The translations under genes were made by a program, and so were the position numbers. Under the pieces are notes generated by a model, which had not been told where the DNA came from, searched no databases, and was given only the letters and a program-made list of their open reading frames with translations. Below are positions 5,272 through 54,408 of a stretch of 64,000 nt of DNA, piece after piece (within the stretch, counting starts at the first letter, position 1; each line of letters begins with the position of its first letter). Origin of the DNA: Camellia lanceoleosa (lineage: Eukaryota > Streptophyta > Magnoliopsida > Ericales > Theaceae); NCBI GenBank assembly GCA_025200525.1, contig CM045762.1:74955217-75019216 (forward strand). The letters are read 5' to 3'.

Positions 5272-5384
5272 ACCCGACCTGTGGGGAATGATACTAGTTT
5301 TGAATGGTTCACTATGTACACATTCCTCTTTTGTAATGCAAAGTTTCCTGCTTACTCACTGCGAAATCCAGTTCAAAAGTGTTC

Positions 5385-6850
5385 CGATAAAGCCTCTGGA
5401 TTCGGAGCGCCCTCCATGGATACCACGATTGGCCAAGACAAAAAGTCTCCGAATTTGGAGCCCCATCCGTGTAGGTCACATTTAGGCCGAAAAAGACTCT
5501 GGATTCGAAGCGCCCTTCGTGGATATCACGATTGGCCAAGACAAAAAGCATTCGAATTCAGAGCCCCATCTGTGCAGGTCACGTTTGGACCGAATAAGAC
5601 TCCGGATTCAGAGCGCCCTTCGTGGATGCCACGATTGGCCAAGACAAAAAGCCTCTGAATTCGGAGCCCCATCTGCGCAGGTCACGTTTGGGCCAAAAAA
5701 GACTCCGGATTCGGAGCACCCTCCGTGGATACCACGATTGGCCAAGACAAAAAGCCTCCGAATTCGGAGCCCCATCCGTGCAGGTTACATTTGGGCCAAA
5801 AAAGACTCCGGATTCGGAGCGCCCTTCGTGGATATCACGATTGGCCAAGACAAAAAGCCTCCGAATTCGAAGCCCCATCTGTGCAGGTCACATTTGGGCC
5901 GAATAAGACTTCGGATTCGGAGTGCCCTTCTTGGATACCACGATTGGCCAAGATAAAAGCCTCTGAATTCGGAGCCCCATCCGTGCAGGTCACGTTTGGG
6001 CGAAAAAAGACTCCGGATTCAGAGCGCGCTTCGTGGATATCACGATTAGCCAAGACAAAAAGCCTCCGAATTCAAAGCCCCATCCATGCAGATCACGTTT
6101 GGGCCGAATAAGACTCCAGATTCAGAGCGCCCTTCATGGATATCACGATTGGCCAAGACAAAAAGCCTCTGAATTCGGAGCCCCATCCATGCAGGTCACG
6201 TTTGGGCCGAATAAGACTCCGGATTCGGAGCGCCCTTCATGGATACCACGATTGGCTGACAAAAAGTCTCCGAACTCGAAGCCCCCTCCGTGGTCACATT
6301 TGGGCTGAATATGACTCTGGATTCGGAGCGCCCTTTGTCGATATCACGATTGGCCAAGACAAAAAGCCTCTAAATTCGGAGCCCCATCCGTGCAGGTCAC
6401 GTTTGGGCCGAATAAGACTCCGGATTCGGAGCGCCCTTCGTGGATACCACAATTGGCCAAGACAAAAAGCCTCCGAATTCGGAGCCCTATCCGTGCAGGT
6501 CACGTTTGGGCCGAATAAGACTCCGGATTCGAAGCGCCGTTTGTGGATATCACGATTGGCCAAGACAAAAAGCCTCCGAATTCGGAGCCCCATCCGTGGT
6601 CACGTTTGGGCCAAAAAAGACTTCGGATTCGGAATGCCCTTCATAGATATCACGATTGGCCAAGACAAAAAGCCTCCGAATTCGGAGCCCCATCCGTGGT
6701 CACGTTTGGGCCAAAAAAGACTTCGGATTCGGAATGCCCTTCATAGATATCACGATTGGCCAAGACAAAAAGCCTCCGAATTCGGAGCCCCATCCGTGCA
6801 GGTCACGTTTGGGCCGAATAAGACTTTGGATTCGGAGCGCTATTCATGGC
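5385..6850. repeat. 103-bp tandem array (about 14 units) in the 3' region of the Tat-like element
   Basis: Seen: the phrase GATTGGCCAAGACAAAAAG recurs about every 103 bp (first near 5427, last near 6770). Each unit has two related halves of about 50 bp. One begins GAATTCGGAGCCCC and runs to ATAAGACTCC. The other begins GATTCGGAGCGCCC and runs to AAAAGCCTCC. The array is therefore a dimeric, higher-order repeat. Some units are shortened, near 6250-6310 and 6590-6610. Because 103 is not a multiple of three, many frames on both strands stay open. I regard those ORFs as by-products. Known: 3' regions of Tat/Ogre elements are a recognised source of new satellites. Confidence 0.93.
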
Positions 6851-6884
6851 GAAAATTAAAGCATACAAACATATAAAACCATAT

Positions 6885-13077: not shown

Positions 13078-13370
13078 AGTATCAACACTACAATCAGGGT
13101 GAAAGTTTGTTGCCTAAATAAGTACATGGTTTTGATGCAGAACCAGCTCAATTGTTGTTTGTTCATGGGCTGGAAGTGGCAGAGATAGAGTTCTCTAGTG
13201 ATGAGAATGAGGTGGAGTTGATTAAGTACTTGCTCTAACATGCCAAATCATTGAAGAAAATGACCATCTTTTTTATTCACCTCATCAAGACCTCTCCAAC
13301 TCAGTCAAGATTACTAGCAAAAAGGTAGAAACTTTCACCAAGGCTTCCTCTATTTTTGCAAACTACTAAT
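13078..13370 (+). pseudogene. FBD-domain exon fragment of an F-box gene (decayed copy)
   Basis: Seen: the reading FVHGLEVAEIEFSSDENEVELIKYLL, a TAA stop, then HAKSLKKMTIFF aligns residue by residue with the exon at 44.1 kb (ELSDDENEVKLIKYLLKHAKSLERMTIF). A frameshift follows in the ATCTTTTTTATTC run. Upstream TTTGTCCAAG resembles an intron acceptor. Known: FBD domains end plant F-box/LRR proteins that recruit substrates to SCF ubiquitin ligases. No F-box part remains here, so this is a broken duplicate. Confidence 0.72.
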
Positions 13371-31059: not shown

Positions 31060-32276
31060 CGTTTAAACCAAACTGAGTTGGCACCAAGGAGAATATCCTA
31101 TAATTTATTAGCACTTTTTTTTTTTGATCAGCAAAAAAAGCACTTTATTGATGAGAAAACATACATTACATATGAAAAAAATATCAATAAAGAAAGGAGG
31201 TGCAAAAAGCATCAAAGTACGCCCCCCAATCTCAACTAGATTGGCACCAAGGAGGATACCTAATCATTTGCTAGCACCACCGAAAGTTGGTGAGAAACCA
31301 ACAAGAAAAGAAAGAAAAAAACAACACAAGCCCTAAGGCCATCAGATGATACACCAGCAGAAACAAGGAAAGAAAATTCCCAAACAATTCAACTCAGTAG
31401 CACCAAGCAGCTGCAGTTCTAACTCAAGAGCCACTCCTAATGCAGATTCTAACTTGCTTAATGGATTCACATAGTTCATCAAGATCCACCTGAGCATTAC
31501 TGAACACATGAATCTGAGAAAAGACAAAAGTGTTGTTGAAGAACATATGGATCTAACAGCTGAGACCTCAGAAACACTTCAGCTTGCAACTTGAATAATT
31601 TCCACCAATGTAGAGCAACAGACCCAATTTCATCACAGAGTTGAGCAGACCAACCAGAATAGAACTTAGCAAACCAACTGAATACCAACTCTATGTAGCC
31701 ACAAACCCAACTTAATTCTCTAGCAGACCTTCCACAAGACTAATCCCCAAGACTATGCTTCCACAAACTCAAACACCATTCCAGAGGTGCAAGATCAGCA
31801 AACAATTAAACAAGCTGGCATGTGTATAGCCAACTAGCAGCATACATCAGCAGATCTGCATAATTCCTTGTGTTCATAATTCCTTGTGCTCAGTATGAAG
31901 CAGATAACATCAATATACATCATACCAGTGAAGCAGATAACAGACCAGTTTCCACCATCTCAACATAACAGAGCCACCATACCAAATCAGAGCAGATCAG
32001 TGAAGAACAAAAGCAGACTGACCAAAACAACAGAGCCACCATCTCAAACACCCAGACCATATCAATCCGAACAAAATGGACCAACCTTACAGACCACTAA
32101 AGCAGACCAAAATGAACAAAACAGAACCAAATGGATAGACAAAGAACAAAAACAACCCAAAAAAGACTAACACAGAGCACACCAACATAATCAATACAGC
32201 AGCCACCATGCTCACTCCATCCACATCCTCCCTTATGAAGAATTCAGGTAATTAAACCAACTATTATAAGCTTATC

Positions 32277-35200
32277 TCAGCTCCCATTCCTAATGCAATA
32301 TTGAACCTGCTGCAAATTAAATACTATATCAGTAACAGAGAACTCTAAATTAGCTGGAGATGATTTAGCCCACAAAGCTATTCTTGCTTTGACAACCTCA
32401 CATAGTTCCTCAAAGTTTGGTTGAGAACCATTAAAAACACAATCATTTCGATGTTTCCATGTGGACCACAAGACAGCCAAAGGCACAATCTTCCACAACA
32501 GCTTTTCACTTCTCTTTGTTTTGCAAAACGACCACCATTGTAGTAGCCCTTCCACTGTGTTTGGCATAGCCCACTGAGAACCCCATCATTTCAGAATATG
32601 AGACCACAACAGCCAGACAAATGGACAAAATAGCAATATATGGTTGACAGATTCCACCTCTTTTTGACAAAAAACACAGCCCACAGTGGCAGATGCATCT
32701 AAAATCTCAATTCTCTACAGGAAACTAGAGGTTTTTACCTTGCCTTGCCAAGCCAACCACCCAAAAAAATTTATTTTAGGAGGAGCACAGTTGTTCCAAA
32801 CTACCACTGCCATTTTCCTAACAGGGCCCAAGGAGAATTCATAACTTTTGTACACAGATGCAACCGAGAACACCCCAGATGGATTAGCCTTCCACTTCTA
32901 AACATCGGGTTTGGTGGCCCTCATTTCTGGCACATTCATAAGGAAGGAATGAAGTCTACAAACCTCTTCCTCTTCCCAGGCCAACAGGGGCCTCCTGAAT
33001 TCCAGATTCCATTCCTGAATCCCTCATCTCCTGTTATAAAAATCAAACACTACTCCTACTTTATCAGTGGACAGAGCAAAAAGTCTAGGAAATTCCTCCT
33101 TGAGACACAACTCCCCAACCCATTTATCCAGCCAGAAATGGGCTCTCCTACCATTTCCTAACTCAATTGCAGAATTTGAAATGTACAGATTGTGTAACAC
33201 AGGTGAGGCTAGAATTGAAGTAATAATATCGAACCAAATTTTTTATCCTCTGTTGTTTCCTTCCAGACAAGGCAGCCACCTTCCACTCCCCATATTATAC
33301 TTAGAGCATATAACATCCTTCCATAGAGTATGATGCTCTGACCCAAACCTCCGCCACCATTTCATCAGTAAACACTTATTCATAACTGTGATTCTTTTGA
33401 TCCCCAAACCTCCCAAATGCTTACTCTTGGTAATGATATCCCATCGTACCATGTGAACTTTTCTTCTAAGATCAGATCCCCCCCAAAGAAAGTTTGCTTG
33501 AATCTTGTCAATTGCTTTTGCCACCCCCACTGGTATCTTGAATAATGACAGGTAATAAATAGGCAAGTTGCTCATAACCGACTTAATTAGAGTCAGCCTC
33601 CCAGCAAACGACAACAGCCTTCTCTTCCAAGTGGGTAACTTCTGTTTAAACTTATCCAAGACTGGCTTCCAAGTACTTGACCTACGAGGATTAGCTCCTA
33701 GAGGTAAACCTAGATACTTAAATGGTAACCTCTGATGGGCGCAATTTAGTCTAGAGGCAAAACTTTGCAGCATTACTTCCTCCACTCCAATACCCGCAAT
33801 CACACTCTTATGATAATTTATTTTCAGCCCCGAGAGGATTTCAAAACACCTAAGAATTCGTTTGATGGTCACCACTTCCACCCACTCAGCTTCACAAAAC
33901 AGTATTGTATCATCTGCAAATTGCAGTTGCGTTATTATGACCCCATTGTTTCCAATGGCAACCCCTTTGATCAAACCCATTTCCTTGGCCCTATCAAACA
34001 ATATATTCAATCCTTCGGCCACAATATTGAAAAGAAAAGGGGACAGTGGATCACCTTGCCGTAGACCTCTCTCTGGGCAAAACTCGTCAGTAGGAGAACC
34101 ATTCACTAAAACTGATACTTTTGTGGAGGTTACACAGCCTTTTATCCATCTCACCCATCTATCCCCAAATCCAAAATTAGATAACATATTGAATAAGAAT
34201 TCTCAATTGACTGAATCATATGCCTTCTCAAAATCTAATTTTAACACCAAACCTTTCTTCTTTAATTTTCTCCACCTATCAACTATCTCGTTTGCAATGA
34301 GGATCCCATCTAGGATATTCCTTCCCTCAAGAAATGCGAATTGTGTCTCACTAATAATCCTTGGCATCACTTGTTTCATCCTATTTGCTAAGACTTTAGC
34401 TAGGATTTTATACAAGGAACCAATGAGACTTATAGGCCTATACTCTCTCAAGCTTGATGGGCTATCTATTTTTGGAATTAGGGCCATAAAAGAGCTATTT
34501 AACCCACTAACCAATGAGGCATTTTGATGGAACTCTCTTAAGAATTGCATTACCTCAGGTTTGACTATTTTCCAGCATTTCTTAAAAAAGGCTAAATTAA
34601 AACCATCCGGCCCAAGTGCTTTATTTCCATCACTGCTCCTGATAACATTTCTAACTTCCTCCTCCGTAAAGTCTGCTTCCAACAAATCCGCTGCTTGATG
34701 ACCTTCAATATTTTTGAACTGGCCAGTCAGTTTAGGCCTAATCACCCAAGATTTAGAAAACTGATTCATGAAATGAGACTTCACCTCCTGCCAAACCTCT
34801 AAAGGTTCTTCCACCATTGAGTTATTCACCATAATTGAACACAAGGAATTCCTACTGTTTCTCTTAGACGCCATAATGTGAAAGTACCTCGTATTTCTAT
34901 CTCCTTTGGAGGCCTAATTAAGTCTGGATTTTTGGAGCCAAGTCTATTCCAACATTTTGTTTAACCTCCAAATGTCATTCATTACTTCCTTTCTTCTAGC
35001 TTGTTCAACCCCCAGAAGTGACCTTTCTTCAGCAATTAGCTCTATGGTATGGGCTTCCTCCTCGGCAGCTTTAAGCTTAGACTCTAGCTTCCCAAACTCT
35101 TCAATGTTCCACACCTTTAATTTGTATCTCAAAGCTTTGAACTTCATAAGGCATCTGTAACCAGACCAACCTTCCACCTGGAAATCTAACCAAAATTTCT

Positions 35201-44034: not shown

Positions 44035-44340
44035 CTGAACTTTAATGGGGATGGGCGTATGTTGAGTACGAATGCATAAGCACAAAGCTGGGATGTAGAG
44101 TGGTGGGAATCAGCTCAATTTTTGTTTGTTAATGGATTGAAAGAAGAAGAGATAGAGCTCTCAGATGATGAGAATGAAGTCAAGTTAATTAAGTACTTGC
44201 TCAAACATGCCAAATCATTGGAGAGAATGACAATCTTTTATTCACCTCATGACATCTCCAGATCAGTGAAGATTATTAGTCAGAAATTAGAAGCTTTCAC
44301 CAAGGCTTCATCTGCTGGTATTTATTTTCATCCATGCTAA
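44035..44340 (+). pseudogene. F-box gene, last exon with FBD domain
   Basis: Seen: possible acceptor TTTCTTTCCACAAG (ends about 44033). One early frame break lies near 44080. Then an open stretch FVNGLKEEEIELSDDENEVKLIKYLLKHAKSLERMTIF ends at TAA 44338-44340 (first ten or so residues of this are the best-preserved start). Known: the FBD domain sits at the C-terminus of F-box/LRR proteins. The duplicate at 13.1 kb has more damage. Together with 27.2 and 38.3 kb it completes the expected domain order F-box, LRR, FBD. Confidence 0.75.
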
Positions 44341-45159: not shown

Positions 45160-46842
45160 GCACCAATGGTGTGGAGCCTTATGTCTCAAAGATGAATTTC
45201 CAAGGCTATTCCAACTATCGAATGACAAGGAAGGTTTACTCAAAGAGTTTGTGGATGCCTCCTCTAATAATTGGTTGTTTTCCTTTAGAAGGTCTCTATT
45301 CGATTGAGAGAAAGAGAAGCTTCTTAGATTAATAGGCATCATTGCACCAACACCTGCACTCAATCTGCTGGTCCAAGATAGTGCTTCATGGTTAGCAGTT
45401 AAGCCCGGGCAATCTCTGGTATCTGTTCTCTACAATCAGACTAATCTCGCTTATGGTGGTAATGTCAGCTCTTACAGTTTGGTCTGGCTAAAATATCTAC
45501 CTCCCAAAGTGCAGTTCTTCGGTTGGCTCGCTTGGAAACAAAAGGTCAAGACTGCTGTGTTCTTGCAACGGATTGCTGTGCTGGATAGGGCTGCATCTAC
45601 TCCATGTATTTTTTACAAATCACAGCAGGAAACTATGGATCATGTGCTTCTCCACTGCCCTCTGGTGTGGAGAGTATGGACTAGGTTGCTGCAGTGGTGG
45701 GGGACTCTGTGGGTGACTCCAGGCTCTGTACAGGGAGTGCTGCAGTGGTGGGCAGGTCATCCCTGTAGGAAAAATGAATAGAGAATTTGGCGAGCATTAC
45801 CATTAGTCACCCTTTGGTCATTATGGAAGCTCAGAAATGAACATCTATTTCAAGATTCACAACAAGACATGCACGAGTTGCAGGAGCTTATAATCATAAG
45901 GTTAGCTATTTGGCTTAAGGCCTCTTCCAAGGATCTTTCATTCTCCATAAATGATTTCCTCTATAACATCTCGAGCATTAGGAAGTTATCTGTTGATGGG
46001 TATGATTTTGTTGTACTCAGTTTCTCTGATGGGTGTGATTTTGATGGGCCATTATCTGTTTTTCTGATTCTTTACTCAGCAGTGGTGTCTGTTGGTTTGT
46101 TCCCCCCCAGTGGGATTGGTCTGCTTCAGTGGGATTGGTCTAGTGGGTTGCTGTTCTGTCCACAGTGGAGTTGGACTCAGTTCTGTATCTCTTTTGATTT
46201 TCACACCAGTCTTCTTGCTGCTTCATAGTTCTGGGGTCTGCTTCTCCTTTGTTGAGGACTGCTACTGGTTCTGAGGAGGTGAAATATTGTATCAGAAATG
46301 GAGAATGACTAAAGGGCTGCAGTAGTGTATCAGCTGGTTCTGAGGAGGTTCAAGGCTGAATTGTGCTGGTTTCTTCTCTGGTTGAAGGCATTGCAGGTTC
46401 AAGGCTGATGGTTGGGTGCTGCTGTCAAATGTATGCTGCTTGGGTGCTCTGTGATGGAAGGATGTGATCTGATCTGATCTACTGCTAAACTGCTGCTGCA
46501 TGTCTAATTTAGTTTTTGCTATGTTTTTTGGTCTTCAGACAGAGCATCTCTGTTTTTGCACCAGTGTTGTTGTGTTGCTGTCTCCAATTCCTCATGGATG
46601 CTTTCTGATGGAAGGGTGTGATTTAGTGTTGTGGAGCTCACAAATGAACTACTGCTGCATGTCTACTAGGTGGTTGCTGTGCTGCTGTTTCTTTGCTTTG
46701 ATCTTTTGTTGGTCTCTCACCAACTAGGAGGTTGGAGCTTAATCTATCTCCAAGCTCCTCTTTATTAACGTTGTCTATTATATGTAATCTATATGTGGTT
46801 CATCAACAAAGTTTCTTTTGCCGTTCAAAAAAAAAAAAAAAA
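45160..46842 (+). mobile_element. 5'-truncated LINE, 1.7 kb
   Basis: Seen: target duplication AACCAAATT (45151-45159 and 46843-46851), tail of about 16 A, and the 3' end GAGGTTGGAGC...CTCCAAGCTCCTCTTTATT shared with the LINE at 48.8-54.3 kb. It contains only the C-terminal part of ORF2 and an 0.85-kb 3' region. Confidence 0.9.
45165..45995 (+). pseudogene. LINE ORF2 C-terminal zinc-binding part
   Basis: Seen: WCGALCLKDEFPRLFQLS, then LPPKVQFFGWLAWKQKVKT and the histidine/cysteine-rich end (TPCIFYKSQQETMDHVLLHCPLVW), LVTLWSLWKLRNEHLF and ASSKDLSFSINDFL. This is the RT-associated zinc-binding region of plant LINEs. Stops at 45306-45308 and 45779-45781 and a possible frameshift near 45140 break it. 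There is no endonuclease or RT, so it is inert. Confidence 0.8.
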
Positions 46843-49303: not shown

Positions 49304-52300
49304 ATGAAGCTTTTATCCTGGAATGTTAGAGGTATTGGTAAATCTGAGAAGAGGGGTAGAATAAAGAAGCTCCTAAAGGATAGGCACATTGATGTGGTAT
49401 TCTTTCAACAAACGAAGAAGGTAGTAGTATCAGAGGCTGTGGCAAGGGGGCTATGGGGTAATAGGAATATGGAATTCTTATCTGTGGACCCTGAAGGCTC
49501 AGCAGGTGGGCTCCTGTGCATCTGGGATCCAGGTGTGTTTCAATTATCTGGTAGCTGCTGTAACAGGAGGTTTATCTTACTCTCAGGTACATTGTATAAT
49601 TCTTTTCATTGCGTTTTACTTAACATTTATGCCCCCAATGAGGTCAGCAGCAGATCCACTTTTTGGAATGCTCTTCTCAACCTCAAAATTCATTTTCCTC
49701 TTCCTTGGTGCGTGGGAGGGGACTTTAATGAGATAAGACATATGGGAGAGAGAGTGGGATGTTCCCAGAGAGACAGGGGTGTGAAACACCTAAATGAATT
49801 TATAGATGCCTGCGAACTGAGTGACCTCCCACTCTATGGTAGAAAATATACTTGGTGTAATACTCAGGATGCTCAGAAATGGAGCAGAATTGATAGGGAC
49901 TTGCTTAGCCCAGAATGGCTAATCCACTTTAACATGAAGCTGTGGGGTTTGCCTAGGCTCATATCTGATCACTGCCCTTTATTGCTGATGGAAGATGACA
50001 GAGATTGGGGCCCCAAACCGTTCTGGTTTATCAATGCTTGGACCCTACACCCTAGCTTCTCCAATTTCTTTACTACTTGTTGGCAGAATTCGAACTTTGT
50101 GGGTTGGGCTGGGTACAGAATCCTTCAAAAACTCAAGCATTTAAAATTGAAACTGAAGATTTGGAATTCAGAAGTGTTTGGTAATGTCTCCTCTAAGCTC
50201 AAGGCTGCTAAAGATGAATTGCATGCAATAGATATCACTGCAGAGTCCAGAGAGCTACTTGATTCAGAAAAGGGCAGGCGAAGGGAGGTTAGAGGTGAAG
50301 TGTGGAATCTATATAGGAGGGTTGAATGGTTATGGCATCAGAAATCCAAATTATCATGGTCACTGCAGGGGGATAAAAACACTCGATTTTTTCATGTCTT
50401 TGCAAGTTCTAGACAAAGTAGAAATATGATCAACTCCATCCCAATTAATGCAGTGCCCTGTGAAGATCCTAGCAGAGTCAAGCAAGAGGTGCTCCGTCAC
50501 TTCAGTCATCAATTCATGGAAAATTGGACGAGTAGGCCTGTGTTGGTGGGGGATTTCAAAACAATTGAGGGAAGCCCTATATCTATTCACCTGGTATCTA
50601 ATTTTACGGAAGCTGAGGTTTTGGCTGCCATCAAAGAGAGTAGTGGTAACAAAGCTCCGGTCCCGGATGGATTTAACTTGTTGTGCTACCAGAAATTTTG
50701 GAAACTTATGAAGCTAGAGATCATGCAATTTTTCAGAGATTTCCACAGAAACAGCAAGCTCACCTATGGCATCAACAGCTCTTTCATTACCCTCATCCCC
50801 AAAATTGCCAACCCCATCAAGCTGACTGATTATAGACCCATCAGCTTGGTCAATTCACTCTACAAAATTTTGGCAAAAGTTCTTGTACATAGGATGAAGC
50901 CAGTGATGCCATTAATTATTGGAGAGGCTCAAACAGCTTTTATTGGTGATCGGAATGTCATTGATGGGGTGTTCATTGCCAATGAACTAGTTGATGATTG
51001 GAAGAAATCCAAACGGAAAGGACTAATTATCAAGTTGGATTTCGAGAAAGCATTTGACTCTGTAAATTGGGAATTCTTATTCTCCCTGATGTCCAGCTTT
51101 GGGTTTGGCTCTAAGTGGATCTCTTGGATAAAAGCCTGTGTATCTACAGCCCGGGTCTCCATTTTAGTGAATGGATCACCAACTAACGAGTTCTCTCCAC
51201 ATAGAGGCCTTCGGCAAGGGGATCTGTTGTCACCTTTCCTATTCAACATTGTGGCTGAAGGGCTCAACATTCTCATTACTAGAGCAATTAATCTTGGCAT
51301 ACTTAAAGGAGTATTGGTTGGAGCAAATAAGGTCCTCCTATCCCATCTACAATTCGCTGATGATTCTATCCTCTCTTGTGAAGCAGACTTGGATCAGGTG
51401 GTTATAATCAAAAGAATCCTCAGGTGCTTTGAAGTACTATCTGGGCTTAAGATCAATTATCACAAAAGTGCTGTTTGTGGAGTGGGCGTGGTGGAAGAGT
51501 CACTGCACTCCTTTGCACACCTCTTGAATTGCAAAGTGCTTGACTTACCTATGAAATTTTTGGGGCTACCTCCAGGAGCCAACCCTGGTAGGAAATCAAC
51601 TTGGAAGCCTGTATTGGACTCTGTCAAAGTAAGACTCTCAGGATGGGCGAGGAAAATGCTATCTTTTGCTGGAAGATTAACTCTGATCAAATCCGTACTT
51701 TCGAGCTTACCGGTGTACTATCTCTCTCTTTTTAGAATGCCTGAAGGTGTGGCTCGTGACTTTGAGAAATTAGAGGCTGCATTCTTGTGGGCTGGTTCAG
51801 AATTCAAAAAGAAAATTCATTTGGTCAAATGGCTAGGGATGTTAACTCTTGCCTGCTTCCCAAGTGGTGGTGGAAATTTGGTACTCAAACCAATGCTCTT
51901 TGGAGGCAAGTTATTTGCAGTAAATATAAGATAGAGGTTGACAGCTGGTTTCCTCCAATGAAATCTTCCTACAAACACTCCAGGGTCTAGAAGGATATCA
52001 TGTTTATAGGAGTTCAGAGTAGAATCATTTTTAACTACTTCTTGGATAATTGCATAATTAAGGTGGGTGATGGCCACAGGATAAAATTTTGGCATGATAA
52101 GTGGTGTGGGGCTGCCTCACTTAAGCACAAGTTTCCTAATCTTTTCGCCCTCTCTACTGCCAAATCTGGTTCCCTCCACTTTTTTTGTGCATTGAAATCT
52201 AGCTCCAATGGTTGGAATTTTTGTATAGAAGACCATTGTATGCTTGGGAGCTAGCGGATGAAGCTAGACTGTCCGATTTGTTATCCCCTGCCCCTTCTCT

Positions 52301-52940
52301 AAGACTTGAGTGTGTTGACAGTCTGGTTTGGGAGGCTGCAGCATCTCGTTCTGGTATGTTCATTGTTTCCTCCTTATACTCCTTTAGCTCTTCTCTTCTT
52401 GGGCCGCCACTAGTTCTTAGCAAGTTTGTCTGGAATCACTCCCTACCCCCAAAAGTTTTATTTTTTGGTTGGTTGGCTTGGAAAAATAGAATCAAATCTT
52501 CAGAACTCCTTCATAATATTGGCATTCTAGGACCTGGCATTTCCACCTCTTGCATTTTCAGCAATTCTGCTTCAGAATCGGCTCAGCATTTGTTGCTTCA
52601 TTGTCCCTTCTCTTGGACCATTTGGTCCTCTGTGCTTCAAGATTGGGGTATTCAATGGTGCATTCCTCCATCTATTTCAGATCTGTTCTCTTGGTGGATG
52701 GGGATGAATTTTAAGTCTTTTCTCAGGAAATTTTGGAGAGCCACTCCCCTTGTTGTCTTCTGGTCCCTTTGGAAACACAGAAACGATTGTGCTTTCTCTG
52801 GTGCCTCTCCTAACTCAGCTGATCTGTGGGACCTCATAAAAGTTAGACTAGCTTTTTGGCTTAAAGCCTCCCTTAGGGGCTTCCCACACTCTATTAATGA
52901 TATTGTTCTGAATTGGAGTCATATAAGGGGCTGCCCCTGA
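49304..52940 (+). pseudogene. LINE ORF2: endonuclease, reverse transcriptase, zinc-binding end
   Basis: Seen: start ATG 49304 (MKLLSWNVRGIGKSEKRG). It is open to 51934, which covers endonuclease (GGDFNEIRHMGERVGCSQRD, LISDHCPLLL) and RT (YRPISLVNSLYKILAKVL, IKLDFEKAFDSVNWEFL, GLRQGDLLSPFLF, LQFADDSILS with both Asp). The endonuclease motif reads FFQQTKK where relatives have LQETK, so the catalytic Glu is Gln. After FKKKIHLVKW the frame shifts. It goes on as SCLLPKWWWKFGTQ, VGDGHRIKFWHDKWCG, and finally the zinc-binding part ending at 52940 (WSHIRGCP). Stops lie at 51988-51990 and 52252-52254. Confidence 0.87.
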
Positions 52941-53439
52941 TTCTCTCCTACCTGCCAGTGTTCTGAATTGCATCAGGAGTGTGGTTGATGGTTGGTTATT
53001 GTTTTGACTGTGTTCACTGCTGTATGGGATCACTTTTGCTTCTGAAATGGGTAGGCAGGATAATTAATTCCTCACCATAATGGAAGGCTGAATATTTCTG
53101 CTTCTGAATACTTCTGCTTCTGGTTCTGCATTTCTCTGGATTGCAATTGGTCTGAATTGTCGCTCTGAATGGATCAGATTTGTATATTATTTTTGTTTTG
53201 AAGTCCCAAGGGCTCTGTCTGCTGCTGATATGAGATTGCCTCTCCCACTGTGCTAGAATGCCTTTGTCTTGGTTGATTCTGCTGATGTGTTTCTTCCTCT
53301 GGCAATGCTAGTGTTCTGCAATTTTAGAATGCCTCTGTCATGCTATGTGATTCTGCTGATATGATTTGCTTTTGGAGGTCGGGGCTGCTTTGGTCTGCAA
53401 TTTCCCTTAGCTGGAGTTCTGGTTCTTTATTTTCATCAG

Positions 53440-53565
53440 ATGAAAGGTCTAGTTAGAGCCTACTTTGTGGAAGCAAACTGGTTTAACACCAAGTATATGC
53501 TTACATTTGAGGAGTTCTTAAGCATTTCTGTGCTGAGTGTTATGCTTTGGTGCTTGGTGGGTGAT
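53440..53565 (+). pseudogene. captured terpene-synthase exon fragment inside the LINE 3' region
   Basis: Seen: after TTTTCATCAG (a good acceptor) the sequence reads MKGLVRAYFVEANWFNTKYM then LTFEEFLS. This resembles the conserved plant terpene synthase segment of the form M-(K)-x-(L/V)-VRxYxxEAxWF-x-x-x-Y-x-PT-x-EEY. After about 30 residues the match continues in another frame ([10 protein letters not shown]). Known: in TPS genes this segment forms a small exon of about 139 nt in the C-terminal (catalytic) domain. The fragment alone has no function. Identity rests on motif memory only, without a search. Confidence 0.68.
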
Positions 53566-53572
53566 CTGCAAG

Positions 53573-53706
53573 GTTAAGATGAGGAGAAAACTTAGAGAGC
53601 CAAGGTTTTGTTTTCAGACAAGAAGTGAGGTGGTGGATGTGCTTGATGATGGTTACAAATGGAGGAAATATGGCCAGAAAGTTGTTAAGAATAGCCTTCA
53701 TCCAAG
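53573..53706 (+). pseudogene. captured WRKY12/13-like exon inside the LINE 3' region
   Basis: Seen: 134 bases reading [14 protein letters not shown], a short variable part with one extra Val (SEVVDVL), then [16 protein letters not shown] and SLHPR. It is preceded by TCTGCAAG and ends AAG|GTTCAG exactly at the Arg where group II WRKY genes have their conserved intron. The DNA-contacting WRKYGQK motif is present, but the C2H2 zinc ligands, normally in the next exon, are not. So it looks like one clean exon, cut at splice sites, placed in LINE sequence. An extra GTG codon suggests slippage. Known: WRKY12/13 act in stem and flowering control, but this piece cannot. Confidence 0.88.
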
Positions 53707-54213
53707 GTTCAGCTCCAGTTGGTGATCTGCTGCTGTTATCCAAGTGGGTGATCTGCACTTAGTAATTTGTCATCCCAGTGGGTGATCACAGTGCTGCTTT
53801 GCTGGGTTTGTGTTGTTTAGTGTTGTGTTGCTGACTTGGTGATTTATCACCCCAGTGGGCTTGTTGCTGACTTGGTGATTTGGTATTGTGTTGTGGTGAT
53901 TTGTTGCTGATCTGAACTGGTTTTATGAACTGCAATCTGTCACCCCAGTGGGTGATCTGAACTGGTTTTATGCAAGTTGTGTTTTGGTATTGTTTTGTGG
54001 TGATATCAAGTTGCTGATCTGAACTGAACGAACAAAGTGATGGTAGAGTTAAGTTGTTCATAGGTTCATTCTGTCTGGGCAGCAGATATCAATAAGTTCC
54101 TGTGGATGGTTGGTATAGGTGGTGGTGTATTCCCCCACATCAAGGAACCTGATTATCTGTTTCTGGTTTTACTAGTTTTTTTGCTCTGTTTCTTTTGCTC
54201 GTTGGTTTCTCAC

Positions 54214-54307
54214 CAACTTGGAAGTTGGAGCTTGTTTTAGCTCCAAGCTCCTCTTTATTGATGTAATTTTCTTATAATTCATCAATAAAGTCTTCTTTTT
54301 GCCGATT
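54214..54307 (+). terminator. conserved LINE 3' end with hairpin and AATAAAG
   Basis: Seen: GGTTTCTCACCAACTT, then GTTGGAGCTTGTTTTAGCTC, which can fold by GGAGCT/AGCTCC pairing, then TCATCAATAAAG before the A tract. The same order stands at 46711-46826. Known: LINE RT can recognise a 3' hairpin. Its role here is inferred. Confidence 0.55.
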
Positions 54308-54377
54308 AAAAAAAAAAAAATACATACAAGACATATGAGATATGTATGAAACATGTATTTTAGCAATCAGCTTGAGC

Positions 54378-54383
<6 letters not shown>

Positions 54384-54408
<25 letters not shown>

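Follow-up and report, generated by a model that had tools for sequence, protein, structure and literature searches.

How did a LINE in the genome of Camellia lanceoleosa come to carry pieces of two unrelated host genes, a terpene synthase (TPS) gene and a WRKY gene, inside its 3' region? The element lies in a stretch of 64,000 nucleotides (C5:74955217-75019216, referred to as the window), and the 3.0 Gb assembly of the same species was searched for the source genes and for further copies. The Pfam analysis of ORF2 revealed the domains Exo_endo_phos (E = 8.2e-6), RVT_1 (E = 5.7e-33) and zf-RVT (E = 1.9e-15). An AP-type endonuclease, a reverse transcriptase and zf-RVT in ORF2, as expected for plant L1-type elements, are thus all present in this LINE, which we take to be L1-type on the basis of these domains. 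In a search for a target-site duplication (TSD) of this copy, an 8-nt match was found and nothing longer. The coordinates are summarized in Table 1.

Table 1. Features of the LINE, the captured gene pieces and an overlapping gene model; positions refer to the window.
Feature	Position	Strand	Evidence or remarks
LINE	~48.8-54.3 kb	+	5'-truncated at about 48.8 kb; poly(A) at 3' end
LINE ORF2 (endonuclease, reverse transcriptase, zinc finger)	49310..52940	+	ORFs and Pfam; broken by frame changes and stops
LINE 3' region, mosaic of short repeat units	52941..54307	+	
TPS intron, final ~10 nt	53430..53439	+	LINE TTTTCATCAG, gene TTTTCTTCAG
TPS exon starting MKGLVRAYF, 5' part (germacrene D synthase type)	53440..53537	+	95.4% to genes over 53430-53537; Pfam
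LINE sequence separating the TPS and WRKY pieces	53538..53568	+	contains unit GTGGGTGATCTGC
WRKY12 exon 2 minus first ~27 nt	53569..53706	+	137/138 nt identical to gene; ends at exon-2 donor edge
Right junction of WRKY piece	53705..53708	+	gene CCAAG/GTACC; empty LINE copies TTCAG/TTTCAGC; window CCAAG/GTTCAGC
LINE tail common to other copies	54160-54320	+	
LINE poly(A) tail	54308..54320	+	
P0129, 'putative WRKY transcription factor 12', C. lanceoleosa, 97 aa	44227-44316, 46228-46284, 53570-53722	+ (last part)	

An earlier note, made from the letters of the DNA, had proposed two tandem pieces in sense orientation between ORF2 and the poly(A) tail. Pfam and DNA matches to the source genes confirmed this arrangement, with the terpene synthase piece first and the WRKY piece second. 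Pfam assigns the open piece that starts at 53440 to Terpene_synth_C (E = 1.7e-7) and the one that starts at 53576 to WRKY (E = 7.5e-8). The window contains three LINE 3' regions, and scanning their nine sense frames with Pfam (stops written as X, matches at or above the curated cut-offs) gave matches in this LINE alone, in two of its three frames; in the sense frames of the other two 3' regions neither a TPS nor a WRKY piece was detected. The absence of the pieces from the sister elements therefore holds for the window, but other LINE copies in the genome carry parts of them. About 31 nt separate the two matches, and 13 of these are identical to a LINE repeat unit. In shuffle controls this unit was equalled by 12 of 500 shuffles, or by 34 of 500 with a longer query. 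For the flank left of the TPS piece the value was 44 of 500, so that its LINE-likeness is not significant; right of the WRKY piece it was 151 of 500 for the first 16 nt and 1 of 500 for 24 nt.

Both source genes, which the note had suggested to look for, are present in the window's own genome, and their exon edges could be compared with the pieces. The WRKY piece is 99.3% identical to the WRKY12 gene over 140 nt, which rules out a chance match, and the TPS piece is 95.4% identical to four TPS genes (L005, L010, L004 and L027) over 108 nt. At the protein level, 46 residues of the WRKY frame are identical to the Camellia WRKY12 proteins P0001-P0003. The frame shares with these three an extra V (SEVVDV) that is absent from the other WRKY12 proteins compared (8 WRKY matches inspected, among the 120 of 904 matches listed). 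All 8 proteins listed as matches of the TPS frame are from Camellia and 81-91% identical to it; those with a name are (-)-germacrene D synthases.

The four edges of the two pieces are of different kinds: one lies at a splice site (WRKY right), one in an intron (TPS left) and two inside exons. WRKY12 exon 2 comprises 165 nt (G/TGG...CCAAG; L009) and the LINE contains its last 138 nt, with some 27 nt of the exon missing on the left. On the right, the piece stops at the exon-2 donor edge to within about 2 nt (shared GT), where the gene continues with GTACCT and the LINE with GTTCAG; beyond the piece the LINE reads GTTCAGCTCC and the gene GTACCTACTT. The assumption that the piece ends at the conserved WRKY intron proved correct. 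It does not begin after an AG, as had been supposed, since the match starts at 53569 inside exon 2; if the CAG at 53615-53617 was meant, it lies about 48 nt downstream of the start of the piece.

The left edge of the TPS piece is located about 10 nt upstream of the exon, inside the intron and before the ATG, and the right edge inside the exon. A start directly behind a CAG acceptor is thus replaced by a match that takes in a short intron remnant. We consider this remnant real because, at the place of TTTTCATCAG in the window LINE, the LINE loci L012, L028 and L032 have GTTTTCTTCAG, which is nearer to the gene intron. The concept of two clean exons was rejected, as the comparison with the TPS source gene shows an intron remnant and a stop inside the exon; from the idea of two exons bounded by splice sites the real donor edge at the right of the WRKY piece is retained, one edge of four. 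An intronic flank of the source gene, named in the note as a sign of ordinary genomic DNA, accompanies the TPS piece by about 10 nt only and is lacking at the WRKY piece.

The right WRKY junction was compared with the empty LINE sites L025 (identical to L056) and L045 (identical to L043), in which the LINE sequence that follows the WRKY piece is present and the WRKY exon is absent. Both read ...TGTTCAG followed by TTTCAGCTCCAG. On the LINE side they show ...TTCAG and then TTTCAGCTCC, with 10 pyrimidines among the 13 positions before CAG; acceptor-like sites of such kind occur 21 times in 7269 nt of LINE 3' region. The junction is ambiguous, as two equally short alignments are conceivable: the piece, ending in AG, would be joined to the LINE directly after the CAG, combined with one T to G change, or one TTTCAG would have been lost and the LINE edge would be located about 6 nt earlier. 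Piece and LINE share CAA at the left junction and AG at the right one.

To what extent other LINE copies carry the block was answered in part by a genome-wide search with 40/50 candidates scored and 20 places fetched. Besides the window copy, no copy spanning both pieces was found among the 40/50 candidates scored. Eleven further copies with WRKY parts were identified among the places fetched. Ten of these (L014-L016 and L018-L024) carry the 5' part of the WRKY piece, joined on the left as in the window copy: its first 54 nt in four copies and its first 31 nt in six, 89-97% identical to the gene. All ten possess the LINE tail and share with the window copy a T variant that differs from the WRKY12 gene. 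The unit GTGGGTGATCTGC stands directly before the WRKY piece in all eight copies inspected (L014-L016, L018-L021 and L023). In the eleventh copy, L017, the WRKY part is an internal one (87.8% over 82 nt). The TPS piece was detected beside LINE sequence at five other loci (L013 with 90.6%, L011 with 87.7%, L012, L028 and L032 with 77% identity), and three further TPS matches of 78-84% (C767, C9 and C12) were among the candidates scored. BLAST revealed no WRKY exon in the five TPS loci and no TPS piece in the WRKY copies. Among the copies compared, the pieces of the window copy are nearest to both source genes.

Related elements without the cargo are present as well. L030 and L033, near relatives by their ORF2 end (90 and 86%), carry neither piece; L036-L038 match 53385-53423 and lack the TPS piece; L041 and L042, which agree to 97% with the part of the window copy that begins at 53725, lack the WRKY piece. 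TSD-like repeats were found in five of the ten WRKY-bearing copies (L018 with 18/18, L019, L022 and L023 with 14/14, L021 with 18/20), with scores of 14-18 compared to a maximum of 11 in 60 control placements. The WRKY cargo was thus copied, and spread, by retrotransposition.

For an estimate of further captures, 8 of the 16 fetched 3' regions were analyzed with Pfam, using stop-free pieces of at least 25 amino acids and leaving out pieces seemingly behind the tail. Two of the eight regions matched, both with known pieces (TPS in L013, E = 1.1e-6; WRKY in L017, E = 0.005, below the cut-off). The remaining six gave no match, in a scan that is blind to pieces as small as the short WRKY parts and missed such parts in four of these six; frequent capture in the LINE family was rejected at that sensitivity. 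A search for WRKY in viral_contigs gave no match.

Among the three routes named in the note, template switching fits best; splicing is possible for the right WRKY edge, and transfer of DNA is possible too. We favor, with a probability of about one half, template switching of the LINE reverse transcriptase onto nuclear host RNAs in two events, followed by multiplication. A Camellia LINE family would have gained the germacrene D synthase piece and the WRKY12 piece in its 3' region, in sense orientation and in two events. We infer that in the nucleus the reverse transcriptase switched from the LINE RNA to a host RNA, and not to DNA, and then back. The presumed donor of the TPS piece is an unspliced terpene synthase pre-mRNA; the roughly 10 nt of intron exclude the mature TPS mRNA, and fit DNA equally well as pre-mRNA. 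For the other piece the donor would be an RNA of WRKY12 that terminated at the exon-2 donor or underwent splicing there, a proposal that would explain the exact right edge; that one of four edges falls at a donor by chance has a probability of a few per cent. After these captures, in the presumed order of events, the family would have multiplied together with its pieces. The sense orientation of both pieces (two of two, 1 in 4 by chance) and a right WRKY edge at the donor with no intron past GT argue for template switching, and the three of four edges that are not splice edges argue against it. The window copy could descend from a two-piece ancestor or have arisen by recombination of LINE RNAs at the shared unit GTGGGTGATCTGC; the nearness of its pieces to both genes fits the best-kept descendant of a two-piece copy as well as a recombinant.

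A patchwork made at the level of DNA, in which a break in the LINE was repaired by copying distant gene stretches (filler DNA) or by recombination and the altered LINE then multiplied, is a rather doubtful alternative. Two short pieces from different genes within one stretch, edges inside exons, the TPS intron remnant and the shared CAA and AG at the WRKY junctions are all consistent with it. It is disfavored by the WRKY piece, which stops at a donor edge, and by the fact that both pieces are coding and in sense, an argument that is biased, as only coding pieces are recognisable, and weak with two of two in sense. Chance resemblance, or a later insertion of a gene fragment into the LINE by a DNA transposon (Pack-MULE, Helitron), is very improbable. 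Gene fragments are common in plant DNA transposons according to PMC13317346, but the inverted repeats within 52900-54400 are all pairs of A/T runs at the tail, with none around the block, other copies have LINE sequence on both sides of the pieces, and an identity of 99.3% over 140 nt is too high for chance.

For the WRKY piece alone, a chimera made by splicing has to be considered: exon 2 would have been joined to an acceptor-like site of LINE RNA, either in trans or in cis with a LINE inside the intron, and the product reverse-transcribed. The junction coincides with the WRKY donor; one of the two equally short alignments also places it directly after a pyrimidine-rich LINE CAG. We regard this route as unlikely, since the left WRKY junction is no splice edge, the right alignment is ambiguous and the TPS piece has no splice edge. 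In addition, WRKY12 intron 2, which is longer than 21 kb (L009, L063 and L064; C6:127289000-127313500) and was followed up to before exon 3, contains no sense LINE in the 21.2 kb searched with eight LINE queries. A LINE in this intron as a visible source was therefore rejected for this stretch, which gave one antisense match of 75 nt (73%). A more general form of this scenario, in which the LINE 3' region traps host exons at the RNA level, appears similarly unlikely. Here the donor of WRKY12 exon 2 would be spliced to a LINE acceptor; after reverse transcription, the chimera would be joined to LINE coding sequence and multiply, and the LINE 3' region would act as a slowly filling, self-copying store of exon pieces.

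Template switching thus remains our preferred reading, and it has precedents. LINE template switching with double jumps is described for a fungus and for mouse (PMC2104539), and L1-like retrocopies are known in dicots (PMC4838847). MINE of Magnaporthe and the tripartite fungal and mouse chimeras, as presented in PMC2104539, resemble the Camellia element in that a LINE is fused to copies of cellular RNA, with multiple switches per element and TSDs at some copies. In those chimeras the cellular RNA, mostly full-length, forms the 5' part and the LINE the 3' part, whereas in Camellia LINE sequence flanks short pieces on both sides. Accordingly, the arrangement of MINE and U6-L1, a 5' cellular RNA followed by a 5'-truncated LINE, was not found here: ORF2 is upstream and the LINE tail downstream of the block. 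At the right WRKY edge the LINE adjoins the gene piece directly, with no flank of the gene in between, and the left TPS edge has its intron remnant of about 10 nt. Unlike the chimeras of PMC2104539, the Camellia copies with a WRKY part kept retrotransposing.

Most described cases of gene capture by plant transposons concern DNA transposons and LTR elements. In mammals, L1 is known for exon shuffling and SVA for exon trapping, with a splicing step in the case of SVA. Several systems treated in PMC13317346 are comparable to some extent. Bs1 of maize, with segments of three host genes, is likewise one plant retroelement with several unrelated gene pieces, but it is an LTR element with the pieces inside its coding part, and the Camellia element is a LINE with the pieces in its 3' region. 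L1 3' transduction and SVA 5' transduction in mammals also bring host sequence into LINE-type transcripts. In L1 3' transduction the host sequence is located behind the element's own 3' end and followed by a second poly(A); in Camellia it is located before this end, and the LINE tail follows the block. Gene fragments, in many cases with introns, are also carried and spread by Pack-MULEs, Pack-CACTA and gene-carrying Helitrons, but these are DNA transposons, and terminal inverted repeats around the Camellia block were not detected in 52900-54400, where the only inverted repeats are the A/T runs at the tail. Joined exons with a poly(A) of their own, as in a processed pseudogene, were not found either, as each gene contributes one partial exon and the TPS piece an intron remnant.

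Plant LTR elements and DNA transposons that carry gene pieces are covered by PMC13317346; its mechanisms section contains no LINE case of gene capture, and the whole words 'LINE' and 'non-LTR', searched in the singular, are absent from its main text. A literature search of titles and abstracts yielded nothing on host exons within the 3' region of plant LINEs, and the listings found contain no plant LINE that took up gene pieces in this region and afterwards multiplied with them. The Camellia element shows that LINEs of plants are able to take up pieces of host genes and to multiply them. As one genome contains the source genes together with empty and partial LINE copies and with descendants that bear TSDs, the capture can be dated, edges can be compared, and capture at the RNA or the DNA level becomes testable. 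We see no apparent function for the captured cargo.

The 3' regions of such LINEs are mosaics, as is evident from L015, whose 3' region contains a second C-terminal end of ORF2 (L015:3405-3461, E = 6e-4). A similar but weak case is present in a LINE of the window at 31425-31540 (- strand, E = 0.04). Mosaic 3' regions fit template switching between LINE RNAs. By eye, the LINE at 45.2-46.8 kb shows an ORF2-end-like stretch, EEVKYCIRNGE*, at 46228-46310, well behind its own ORF2 end. The unit GAATAGCCTTCATCC, observed in L012, L014, L019 and other LINE copies (CTCAACC in L012, L028 and L032), resembles the 3' end of WRKY exon 2; this similarity may be fortuitous or mark a remnant of WRKY.

The captured WRKY piece also accounts for the public record P0129 as LINE 3' sequence plus an exon piece. 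Its three parts all map inside the window, which excludes it as an independent second copy; it is a model stitched together out of LINE 3' sequence, the captured piece and a small exon further upstream, and probably no real gene. In another C. lanceoleosa gene model, P0128, a LINE ORF2-like protein (by eye, compared with the ORF 33243-34202) is joined to terpene synthase exons; Pfam detects the terpene synthase domain only. Two further observations concern the rest of the window: similar small coding pieces (FYSPH..SVKI) at 13268-13351 and 44227-44316 are 71% alike, and 5272-6876 is a long tandem repeat that is open in several frames on both strands.
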